Source: Afipia sp. GAS231
GTDB lineage: Bacteria > Pseudomonadota > Alphaproteobacteria > Rhizobiales > Xanthobacteraceae
NCBI RefSeq assembly: GCF_900103365.1
Contig: NZ_LT629703.1
Span: 5,070,501-5,134,500, forward strand
Direction of reading: 5' to 3'
Length of the DNA stretch: 64,000 nt
Shown here: positions 23,329 to 58,232 of the stretch, in pieces
Layout: each line of letters opens with the position of its first letter
Position numbering within the stretch: the stretch's first letter is position 1
Notes under the pieces: model-generated
Database searches by the model: none
Told to the model about the DNA's origin: nothing
The model's input: the letters and a program-made list of their open reading frames with translations, nothing else
Made by a program: the position numbers and the translations under genes

Positions 23329-23522
23329 AGCACTCTCCCAAACGGCCCAGCGACGGGGTCCCGTTCAAAAAATGATGTCGGGTATGAGTGCCCGGCCCAA
23401 TTGCGCGATGGAGGCGCAACGAAGCCAAAAAACTCAGACCAGACTGTGCTGCCGTGGATTGGTTGGGAATTTTCCCGCCCGCACACCTGGCAATGAAGGA
23501 CAAGCCTTTTCAGTAGCCCGCG

Positions 23523-23800
23523 CCGGCGTTGGAATGCCGGTAGAGACCAAAAAAGCCCGATCCGTCGTTGCTTTAAGTCGCGTCCCCCGTTGAGAGCGGG
23601 GTGCGCCGGTTCGCCTCCGGCTGCCAGTCACGGTTGCAACAGATGAAGAGACCTTCAACGGCATCTCTTGAGAGAGATGCTGGCCATCCAATGAGGAGGA
23701 CCCTCGGTTCTTCATCCCTTGGCGGCTGTCCGGCCTCTTGTCCGGATACCTACCGACTGACACACGACCACAGGCACGTGCGAAATTGGGCAAAAGTGCA
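23523..23800 (-). ncRNA. Structured leader of ornithine decarboxylase, speF-type candidate
   Basis: About 480 bases without a gene separate the decarboxylase from any upstream element. On the minus strand the stretch folds into successive hairpins: 23729-23746 (TCCGG stem), 23661-23680 (8-bp stem GCATCTCT/AGAGATGC), 23605-23621 (GCCGG/CCGGC), 23585-23601 (CCCCG/CGGGG) and 23523-23540 (CCGGC/GCCGG), with a U6 run at 23549-23554. An RNA motif named speF is known upstream of this gene in alphaproteobacteria. I assign it by position and structure, not by a covariance search. Confidence 0.6.
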
Positions 23801-26553: not shown

Positions 26554-26671
26554 GTCGTCCCCGCGAAAGCGGGGACCCATACTCCGCGGCGTTTGTCGTG
26601 AAGGAAGGCCTCTGCCACATCGCCTAACAACGACGGCACGGCGTATGGGTCCCCGCGTTCGCGGGGACGAC
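26554..26671. repeat. Palindromic repeat, family 3 (copy 1)
   Basis: The unit GTCGTCCCCGCGAAAGCGGG plus GACCCATAC is mirrored by GTATGGGTCCCCGCGTTCGCGGGGACGAC about 60 bases later. The related copy near 47113 is interrupted by an IS110 element; another relative is at 31252-31352. Confidence 0.88.
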
Positions 26672-29715: not shown

Positions 29716-30675
29716 TCAGTTCAGTGCGTAACGGCTGGGATCCCATTTCTGCCGTCGTGCGATCATGATGTTGAGGATGACGATGAGCTTGCGCATGCAG
29801 GCGACAAGCACCACTTTCGGCTTCTTTCCCTTGGCAATCAGGCGGTCGTAGAAGGCCTTGAGCACCGGGTTGTTCTGCGTGGCTGCGCCGAGGCAGGGCA
29901 TGTAGATGGCGTTGCGGACCCAGCGGCGGCCACCCTTGATATGACGCTCACCGCGCCGATGGCCGCTATCGTCGTCGTACGGGGCGGCGCCTAATAACGC
30001 ACCGGCGATCTTGTTGCTCACCTGCCCAAGCTCCGGCATCCCCGCAATGAGGTTGGCGGAGGTCGTTTCGGCGAGGCCCGGCACGCTCTCGATGATCTCG
30101 GCACGCTCGGCAAGGTGTGGCGAGGCCTTGATCTTGGCCGCAATTGCCGCCTCGAGCTTGGCAATTTCACTGACCAGATTCTTCAAGACGCGGGCATGCG
30201 TTTTCTGAACCAGTCCTGGTGCAGCATGCTCGTTTTGGCTTTGCAAGCGCGTCTTGAGATCACCCAGACCGATGCGCGCTTTCACCAGCGCCAGCAACTC
30301 CTCGCGTGCGGCATCGTGGGTCTGGCTCGGCGCCTCGGTAAATATCTCGGCGAACCAGGCGATCATCTCCGCGTCGATCACATCGTTCTTTGCCAGCCGG
30401 CCGGCCGATAGCGCGAAGCTGCGGACGCGTTTGGGGTCGACGATCCGCACCTCGACACCGGCCTGGCGCAGTAGCTTGGCCCAGTCACGCTCGTAACCGC
30501 CGCTCGCCTCCATCACAGCCCTGGTTGCCTTGTACTTGCGAAGCCAGGCCACCAGCTTGCGGTGGCCTTGTCCCGTGTTCGGACAGACCTGACGCAATGA
30601 CAGCGAGCGAATGCACGCATCCACCTTGTCCTTTGCCACATCGATGCCCACGACAATGCGATCATCTTGTGCCAT
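29716..30675 (-). CDS. IS110-family transposase (DEDD recombinase)
   Basis: The 319-residue protein starts at the ATG at 30675, after an adjacent ATG at 30678. The N-terminal RuvC-like DEDD domain has the acids in VVGIDVAKDK, VMEASGGYER and KNDVIDAEMIAWFA. The C-terminal transposase_20 domain contains the catalytic Ser region APYDDDSGHRRGERHIKGGR and VPGLAETTSANLIA. IS110 recombinases use a bridge RNA to pair donor and target DNA. The frame is intact, so the element may be active. Confidence 0.93.
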   Translation of the reverse strand: MAQDDRIVVGIDVAKDKVDACIRSLSLRQVCPNTGQGHRKLVAWLRKYKATRAVMEASGGYERDWAKLLRQAGVEVRIVDPKRVRSFALSAGRLAKNDVIDAEMIAWFAEIFTEAPSQTHDAAREELLALVKARIGLGDLKTRLQSQNEHAAPGLVQKTHARVLKNLVSEIAKLEAAIAAKIKASPHLAERAEIIESVPGLAETTSANLIAGMPELGQVSNKIAGALLGAAPYDDDSGHRRGERHIKGGRRWVRNAIYMPCLGAATQNNPVLKAFYDRLIAKGKKPKVVLVACMRKLIVILNIMIARRQKWDPSRYALN

Positions 30676-47110: not shown

Positions 47111-47138
47111 CTGTCGTCCCTGCGAAAGCAGGCAACTG

Positions 47139-48083
47139 TTATGAAGGCCGTGGTGCGAGGTAGGCTTTCCGGTCTCGCACCATGGCGTTGAGGGTCGTGA
47201 GGAGTTTTCGGGCTACGGCGATCAGGGCAAGTTTGGCGGGTTTACCGGCGGTGCGGAGCTTTTGGTAAAAAGCTTTAACCGAACCATCGCGGCGTACGGC
47301 GTTGAGAGCGGCCATGTAGAGAGCGTCGCGGACCCGCTTGCGGCCGCCACCGATGGCTCGTTTGCCGCGATATAGGCCGCTATCGACGTTAAGCGGAGCC
47401 AGACCAGCCAACGCAGCCACCTGCTTAGGCCCGACGCGACCGAGTTCGGGCATCTGGGCGATGAGCTGCATACAGGCGACAGGCCCGACGCCTGGTGCCG
47501 ATCGTATCAGACGCGCGTCGTCGGATATCGTCGGCTCGGCCTTGATGAGGGTTTTGATCCTGGCCTCGATCGCCTTGACCTCGCCGTTGAGGAAGTCGAT
47601 GAGGCGCGCAATGCTTTCGATCATGGCGGGATCACGCGTCTCGCTGCGCCGGTTCTTCTCCTGAGCCCGCATGTGGACCAGTTGATCGCGGCGTTTTGCG
47701 AGGAGTGACAGGGCGTTCCGGGCTGGATCTGGCGCCTGTTCGGAAGCCGGCGCCATCGTCCGCGCAAAGCCGGCGAGCATGTGGGCGTCAATCGCATCGG
47801 TTTTAGCCAGCCGTCCTCGCGCGCGGGCAAAGTCGCGAGCGCGGGCGGGATTGATGCGGGCAAACCGGATCCTGGCCCGATGCAACGCTTCGGCAAGTTC
47901 TCGGTCGTAGACGCCTGTGGCTTCGAATACGACAAAGACATTGCCGCATCGCCAACGCGCCACCTGCTCCGTGATGGCCTGTAGCGCGTTGGCGATGCGC
48001 TCGGGTTTGCCGACGGCATCATCAAAAATGTCGAGCGTATGCTTGGAGACGTCGATTCCGACGCAGCGAAGGGATAAGATCAT
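47139..48083 (-). CDS. IS110-family transposase (DEDD recombinase)
   Basis: The 314-residue protein has the RuvC-like acids in CVGIDVSKHTLD, VVFEATGVYDRELAE and KTDAIDAHMLAGFA. The transposase_20 domain includes APGVGPVACMQLIAQMPELG and the Ser region LAPLNVDSGLYRGKRAIGGGRKRVRDALYMAAL. It is only distantly similar to the recombinase at 29716. The frame is complete. Confidence 0.93.
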   Translation of the reverse strand: MILSLRCVGIDVSKHTLDIFDDAVGKPERIANALQAITEQVARWRCGNVFVVFEATGVYDRELAEALHRARIRFARINPARARDFARARGRLAKTDAIDAHMLAGFARTMAPASEQAPDPARNALSLLAKRRDQLVHMRAQEKNRRSETRDPAMIESIARLIDFLNGEVKAIEARIKTLIKAEPTISDDARLIRSAPGVGPVACMQLIAQMPELGRVGPKQVAALAGLAPLNVDSGLYRGKRAIGGGRKRVRDALYMAALNAVRRDGSVKAFYQKLRTAGKPAKLALIAVARKLLTTLNAMVRDRKAYLAPRPS

Positions 48084-48240
48084 GGGGCCTGTCCCTGTGA
48101 TGCGAGGTCTGTTGGCGCAGCCTCGTGCAACTGTTCAGGTTAATGGTCGAAACGGGCGGGAGACCGAGCCGGCTTACGGCGTCATGCGCCAGGGACCCAA
48201 CGGCTTCCCGCCCACCCCATCATGACAGACCCTGCACACA
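48084..48240 (-). ncRNA. Candidate bridge RNA of IS110-B
   Basis: Arms TCCCGCCC (48206-48213) and GGGCGGGA (48154-48161) can close a loop that contains CAGGGACCCA (48190-48199), identical over ten bases to the insertion flank 48241-48250. Further on, GCAACTGTT (48127-48135) is identical over nine bases to the element's own right end (47132-47140). These are the expected target and donor guide positions. Confidence 0.68.
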
Positions 48241-48369
48241 CAGGGACCCATACCGCGTGATCTAACGATAAGGCGGGATGGGAGAGACCTTTCGTAAAAC
48301 GACTGCCGGTGGCTATGGGTTCCTGCGCCCGTGCGCAATTGCGCACTAGGCAGGGACGACGGCTGCAAC

Positions 48370-58130: not shown

Positions 58131-58219
58131 GGTGCGGTAGCGCCTCGCGCTATCGCTGCCCTCCTTGGGCGTTTCCTCCCTAGACTTGGGCCGCTTGTTC
58201 ATTCAAGCGGCCCTTTTTT
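58131..58219 (+). ncRNA. Candidate trans-acting small RNA with CCUCC motifs
   Basis: The unit has a promoter and a strong terminator about 90 bases apart and no reading frame. Hairpin 1 (58136-58154) has stem GGTAGCGC/GCGCTATC with loop CTC. Hairpin 2 (58158-58170) is GCCC-TCCTT-GGGC. An unpaired GTTTCCTCCC follows (58171-58180), then the terminator. Exposed UCCUCC-type segments can pair with Shine-Dalgarno sequences. GTTTCCTCCC differs by one base from the CUUUCCUCCC motif of the cuckoo-type small RNAs known in alphaproteobacteria. Confidence 0.65.
58188..58219 (+). terminator. Rho-independent terminator of the small RNA
   Basis: A perfect 10-bp stem, GGGCCGCTTG (58188-58197) with CAAGCGGCCC (58204-58213), loop TTCATT, is followed by six T. 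Confidence 0.92.
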
Positions 58220-58232
58220 CTTTGGGCTAGTT

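Follow-up and report, generated by a model that had tools for sequence, protein, structure and literature searches.

We describe an insertion sequence of the IS110 group which interrupts one arm of a palindromic repeat and was very probably placed there by recombination guided by a bridge RNA. It is a new member of the group, with a known mechanism and an unusual core dinucleotide. This reading draws on features legible in the DNA: the ends of the element, the interrupted repeat, the match between guides and targets together with their joint change in relatives, and the conserved catalytic residues. Among the papers listed by literature searches on IS110 elements with REP or palindromic targets, or in Bradyrhizobium, none was apparently concerned with this element.

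The window, i.e. the whole stretch of 64,000 nucleotides analyzed here (G000:C1:5070501-5134500), is part of a 7.58-Mb genome and has a GC content of 63.5%. The features discussed below are collected in Table 1.

Table 1. Positions, in the window, of the element, its predicted RNA features and its target
Feature	Position	Strand	Basis or remark
IS110-group element, 1,112 bp plus one extra copy of the CC core	47131..48244	-	differently flanked copies in the genome (four); same-genus copies (70 of 71)
Left end of element	48244	-	minus-strand element
Right end of element	47131	-	minus-strand element
CC core, left end	48243..48244	-	target-to-element transition immediately follows CC
CC core, right end	47131..47132	-	element-to-target transition immediately follows CC
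Recombinase gene, 314 aa	47139..48083	-	PF01548 and PF02371; aligns with IS621 and ISCro4
Left target TGGGTC, in interrupted repeat arm	48245..48250	-	also in intact arms
Right part of interrupted arm, TGCTTTCGCAGGGACGAC on minus strand	47113..47130	-	five intact copies of joined arm
Second, opposite arm of same repeat pair, uninterrupted	48313..48360	+	
Possible -10 hexamer CATGAT	48219..48224	-	inferred; with TTGCCT made by end joining, 17 bp apart
Predicted target-binding loop	48154..48213	-	stem 48213..48206 with 48161..48154; inner hairpin 48190..48178; folds, pair changes
Left target guide UGGGUCCC	48192..48199	-	matches left target; co-changes in relatives
Right target guide AAGCCGG, complement of CCGGCTT	48169..48175	-	one mismatch (T for G) to target of window copy
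Predicted donor-binding loop	48088..48139	-	stem 48139..48136 with 48091..48088; single-sequence folds
Predicted inner hairpin of donor loop	48125..48121 with 48107..48103	-	single-sequence folds and consensus fold
Left donor guide AACAGUUG, equal to right end of element	48128..48135	-	
Right donor guide CACAGG, complement of CCTGTG at left end	48094..48099	-	invariance with left end

Extent and copies of the element

In the window sequence, GTCGTCCCTGCGAAAGCAG stops at 47131 and GGACCCATAC picks up at 48244. Four copies of 1,112 bp are present in the genome (L001, L002, L003 and L004, the last being the window copy) and, since their flanks differ, the ends of the element can be read. All four are cut after TGGGTC plus CC, the left junction being TGGGTC CC TGTGTG; at the right junction, AACAGTTG CC is followed by GGCTC, GGCTC, GGCGT and TGCTT. 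L001, L002 and L004 are identical, and L003 differs by a single base within the right target guide (AAGCC to AAACC), the remainder of the element being unchanged: its target may have been picked before the guide mutated. The non-coding end is much longer on the left than on the right (about 160 against 6 bases, the core being excluded on the right), a trait of the IS110 group.

Relatives were collected from 265 genomes of the same genus at E <= 1e-90, which gave 71 copies in 16 genomes, those outside the host genome being 74–77% identical. A family-wide search of 296 genomes at E <= 1e-70 produced matches in 8, and the six of these lying outside the genus contain ten copies at 52–56% identity. 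Seventy of the 71 same-genus copies were taken by an anchor pattern, on which the end reading, guide match, stem and core counts are based; the one missed, L080, was inspected separately and fits (TGGGTC CC on the left, CC GGCTT on the right). L098 is an incomplete element with no right junction. L031, from a scan of public genome contigs with the protein, has a left end equal to that of L046 and is excluded from the counts.

The host genome is rich in IS110 elements: 40 places match the recombinase at E <= 0.001, and they fall into several subfamilies. A second IS110-type element is found in the window itself, at 29746-30654 (L018); its recombinase is about 39% identical, and it has many copies in the genome (L012-L026). 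Most of those listed adjoin the same repeat (GTTTGCGACGATGGCC to the left, CTGGTGGGACAGGATGGCGGGA to the right); this second element therefore probably targets another repeat.

Recombinase

Judged by its domains and by the DEDD and serine residues, the protein is a member of the IS110 family. PF01548 (1.3e-18) and PF02371 (4.2e-17) both pass their curated cut-offs, and the sequence aligns with the IS621 recombinase over residues 5-301 (E 4.7e-38) and with that of ISCro4 (PDB 9t56) over residues 4-301 (E 6.6e-38). By alignment to the IS621 motifs, D11, E54, D96, D99 and S235 are the DEDD residues and the catalytic serine; those named for IS621 in the excerpts of PMC11208158 are D11, E60, D102, D105 and S241. 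Of 8,000 sequences scored in a protein search, 3,194 were relatives at E <= 1e-60, with no IS name among the 120 matches listed. The preliminary description of this DNA had recognized an IS110 recombinase with a bridge-RNA-like left end, and the two domains, together with the predicted fold considered next, bear this out.

Non-coding left end: predicted loops and guides

The predicted fold of the left end contains two modules, the first carrying UGGGUCCC on its 5' side and AAGCCGG on its 3' side, the second AACAGUUG and CACAGG in the corresponding places. Order and strand of the guides agree with the rule reported for IS621 in the excerpts of PMC11208160; the predicted structure and the guide matches fit an IS110-group two-loop RNA with guides for target and donor. 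The two left guides, one for target and one for donor, had already been proposed, and the sequences named in their support lie where they were said to lie: GCAACTGTT at both 48127-48135 and 47132-47140, GGGCGGGA/TCCCGCCC closing the loop, and CAGGGACCCA at 48190-48199 and 48241-48250. The ten-base identity represented by the last of these is present but composite, consisting of target (TGGGTC), the shared CC, and a TG that we assign to the element's side of the exchange, the window target also having TG. The right guides, and the natural re-targeting described below, are additions to that proposal.

In an alignment of 12 sequences, double changes preserve 5 of the 34 predicted pairs. Two of these belong to the target loop's inner hairpin, another two adjoin the outer stem of that loop, and the fifth is in the donor loop's inner hairpin. 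Between the two groups, MAFFT places some of the outer target stem wrongly. Two further pairings appear in the consensus fold, built from 12 of the 29 aligned donor-guide sequences, so the stretches involved could partly be RNA stems. One joins the left and right target guides and may reflect the near-palindromic target; the other joins the right donor guide to the element's left end and is the guide-donor match occurring on a single strand. Over the 29 aligned sequences, the right donor guide and the left end are invariant, with a single-base exception in L103.

At the gathering threshold, no Rfam family is matched at the element. Elsewhere in the window Rfam matches a speF leader adjoining sRNA ar45, at 23383-23542 and 23551-23791 (-), and a suhB/mmgR sRNA at 58151-58227 (+).

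Target repeats and empty sites

The element had been said to sit inside a repeat arm, and this is confirmed: once 1,112 bp are removed at the window copy, TGGGTCCCTGCTTTCGCAGGGACGAC remains, of which the genome has five intact occurrences at other places. The rejoined targets of L001 and L003 have six intact occurrences each, all of them, with the window form, among 56 intact arms, and the rejoined L002 target has 14 exact occurrences. Since the joined forms are found intact in the genome, TGGGTC is target and not element. Exact TGGGTC is present at the left target in 65 of 70 usable same-genus copies; its chance at a random place is about 3e-4, assuming 64% GC. The TATGGGTCCNNGC pattern matches the genome 94 times, against 3 for a reversed control pattern.

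All four targets in the genome are repeats. The earlier expectation that every copy would occupy the same base of a single repeat family holds for the base, TGGGTC CC preceding the element in all four, but not fully for the family: L002 lies in a different, longer palindrome, several palindrome types are used in the wider set, and 3 of 79 sites show none across the insertion point. Similarly, the arm beginning at 26554, offered as the picture of the unoccupied site, is indeed intact, but it is of the CCCGC type, with a right half that mismatches the right guide, and so is not the most suitable model of the empty target.

A perfect stem of at least 5 bp spans the insertion point in 76 of the 79 reconstructed sites, a count made without random control, and it might be argued that the recombinase reads the palindrome, as cruciform or hairpin, rather than a sequence matched by a guide. 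We consider this very improbable. The palindromes used vary in their stems and have very different loops, yet at the listed sites it is always the TGGG-type arm that is entered, never the GTCGTCCC or GTGTCCC arm, and targets co-vary with guides. Only L035, L045 and L046 have no palindrome across the insertion point: the first two nevertheless match their left guides at 5/6 and 6/6 bases, and the third combines a poor match with a stop in the recombinase frame. Guide-free recognition of palindromes is thus disfavoured by the stem survey. Since the stemless L045 matches its guide in full while the stemless L046 matches poorly, it seems that sequence is recognized, and that repeats are used as sites because they carry it many times.

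Inspection of about 330 bases beside the hsp20-like gene showed no TGGGTCCC arm in 12 other same-genus genomes (L110-L121), and the empty site therefore rests on the intact repeats elsewhere in the host genome. A related palindrome, with GTCGTCCC in both arms, is found beside this gene in L117, and TGGGTCCC occurs elsewhere within the 3.4–3.6 kb loci of L119, L120 and L121. In L112-L115 the same intergenic region contains other palindromic repeats, without IS, as if the spot collects repeats.

Guides and targets across relatives

Over 80 sites, 469 of 480 positions in the left target (six bases) and 313 of 395 in the right target (five bases) match the guide of the element concerned. In 10,000 shuffles of the guides among 24 genome/guide clusters, the left value was reached in 3, the right value in 3 and their sum in none; the shuffles, like the Fisher tests given below, ignore relatedness between genomes. 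In same-genus relatives outside the host genome the guide match covers only seven bases, TGGGTCC. In the relatives from outside the genus, a differing guide mostly goes with a target that differs likewise: guide and target have changed together to GGGGTC in L099, to TGGGCC in L101, L107 and L108, and to TGGATC in L103; on the right, L100 has guide AGGCG with target CGCCT. L106 has a TGGGCC guide at a TGGGTC site, and the left match is reduced to 4/6 in L105 and 2/6 in L046.

The right match is loose: GAGCC guides are found at GGCCT (20 sites) more often than at the exact GGCTC (14) or at GGATC (13). The third base after the core is nonetheless related to the guide, being A in 12 of 13 sites with GAUCC guides and in 13 of 61 with GAGCC guides (p = 2.5e-6) and, within the genus, in 5 of 6 versus 12 of 59 (p = 0.004), both tests treating as independent sites that are not.

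A match of 7-8 bases within a region of 160 is weak by itself, and might be due to chance or to captured target DNA devoid of function. This explanation is hardly credible, as the match reappears at an unchanged position within the loop in relatives of 52–77% protein identity, with both guides co-changing. The guides of the preliminary description appear correct, and are now well supported by the relatives. Many insertions by a near-identical guide, intact empty targets and co-changing relatives amount to a natural test of the bridge-RNA rules, and suggest how such elements could multiply with little harm, by aiming at repeats present in many copies.

The core dinucleotide

CCTG is found at both ends of the window copy, and CT had been predicted as the core. 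The comparison of copies does not support this: the window target carries TG after CC by chance, and the other copies narrow the shared segment to CC. On the target side, GG follows CC in 67 of 69 same-genus copies; the exceptions are the window copy, with TG, and L046, with GC. On the left of the copies CC is followed by the T of the element and on the right by the G of the target, with no T/G mixture on either side. Both C's are covered by the right guides (CCGG, CACAGG). The left guides are a poorer fit: the core of the left target guide is CU in all same-genus copies outside this genome (66 sites), and no more than one base of the core is paired by the left donor guide. In IS621, according to the excerpts of PMC11208158, the top strand is cut directly after the core; the switch here follows CC, and the core is therefore placed at CC. 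As read from these sequences, CC is most likely right and CT most likely wrong.

The same bridge-RNA mechanism acting on a CT core is, in our view, unlikely. It would agree with the window copy, which has CT at both ends, and with the excerpted IS621 paper, where the core of IS621 and its relatives is CT with an almost invariant T. It would also imply a target CG facing an element CT, a second-base mismatch in nearly all insertions that was always repaired one way, whereas the junctions show no mixture and the right guides extend over both C's. A CT core is made less likely by the finding that T follows CC in the target of one genus copy out of 69, that of the window.

Taking CC as the core, the clade departs from the almost invariant T of the IS621 relatives. 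We lean towards the view that, in Bradyrhizobium and its family, one IS110 clade has CC as its core, lacks the T contacted in IS621, and tracks host palindromes by altering its target guides. If so, CC sites would become accessible to a bridge recombinase, and the clade would document guide re-targeting as it occurs in nature. Confirmation of the CC core would make T at the second core position dispensable across the family, which bears on the sites open to bridge recombinases.

Proposed mechanism

RNA production, the circle and the position of cleavage are steps that we infer. The two ends of the element would join in an excised circle, probably creating a promoter. Joined ends would give TTGCCT, 17 bp, and then CATGAT (35 copies), CAGGAT (26), CATGGT (8), CATAAT (2) or CAGAAT (2), as read in 73 copies of 80 sites at positions preset in the script and without control; of the seven sites missed, four entered the donor-guide alignment and three were left out. 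This arrangement suggests a promoter formed at the joined ends. If it is one, transcription would begin near the target-loop stem, little space being left between this stem and the candidate -10 hexamer, and would yield an RNA of about 130 bases.

The left end would be transcribed into an RNA with two loops, the guides of the first pairing with the target, and the second pairing with the joined ends of the element through AACAGUUG and through CACAGG with CCTGTG. The recombinase would exchange strands directly after the shared CC, and for this reason the insertion point would be a single base, with fixed polarity, within one arm of several types of palindromic repeat.

Comparison with known systems

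Among the closest known systems is IS621, as described in the excerpts of PMC11208160 and PMC11208158. Shared with it are a DEDD plus serine recombinase, a long left end with target loop followed by donor loop, pairing of the left guides to the bottom and of the right guides to the top strand, insertion into REP palindromes, and a short right end. The two differ in the core, the IS621-type CT of target and donor being replaced here by a shared CC, in the left end (191 bases in IS621, about 160 here), and in the RNA, of 177 bases in IS621 and predicted at about 130 here, probably without the 5' stem-loop. ISCro4 (PDB 9t56), compared by protein alone, has a homologous recombinase over the aligned residues given above.

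In the IS1111 group, which likewise combines a recombinase of the DEDD family with an RNA guide, the non-coding region lies downstream of the gene, with subterminal inverted repeats (7-17 bp). Such a downstream region is absent here, the stop codon of the recombinase being 6 bases from the right core.

ISEc21 and the seekRNA elements, as excerpted from PMC11187229, resemble the present element in the IS110-type order of target matches and in an RNA derived from upstream of the recombinase gene. ISEc21 has other targets, and the recombinases of its cluster are longer (345-385 aa). Natural redirection in relatives has been reported for seekRNA elements in the same source.
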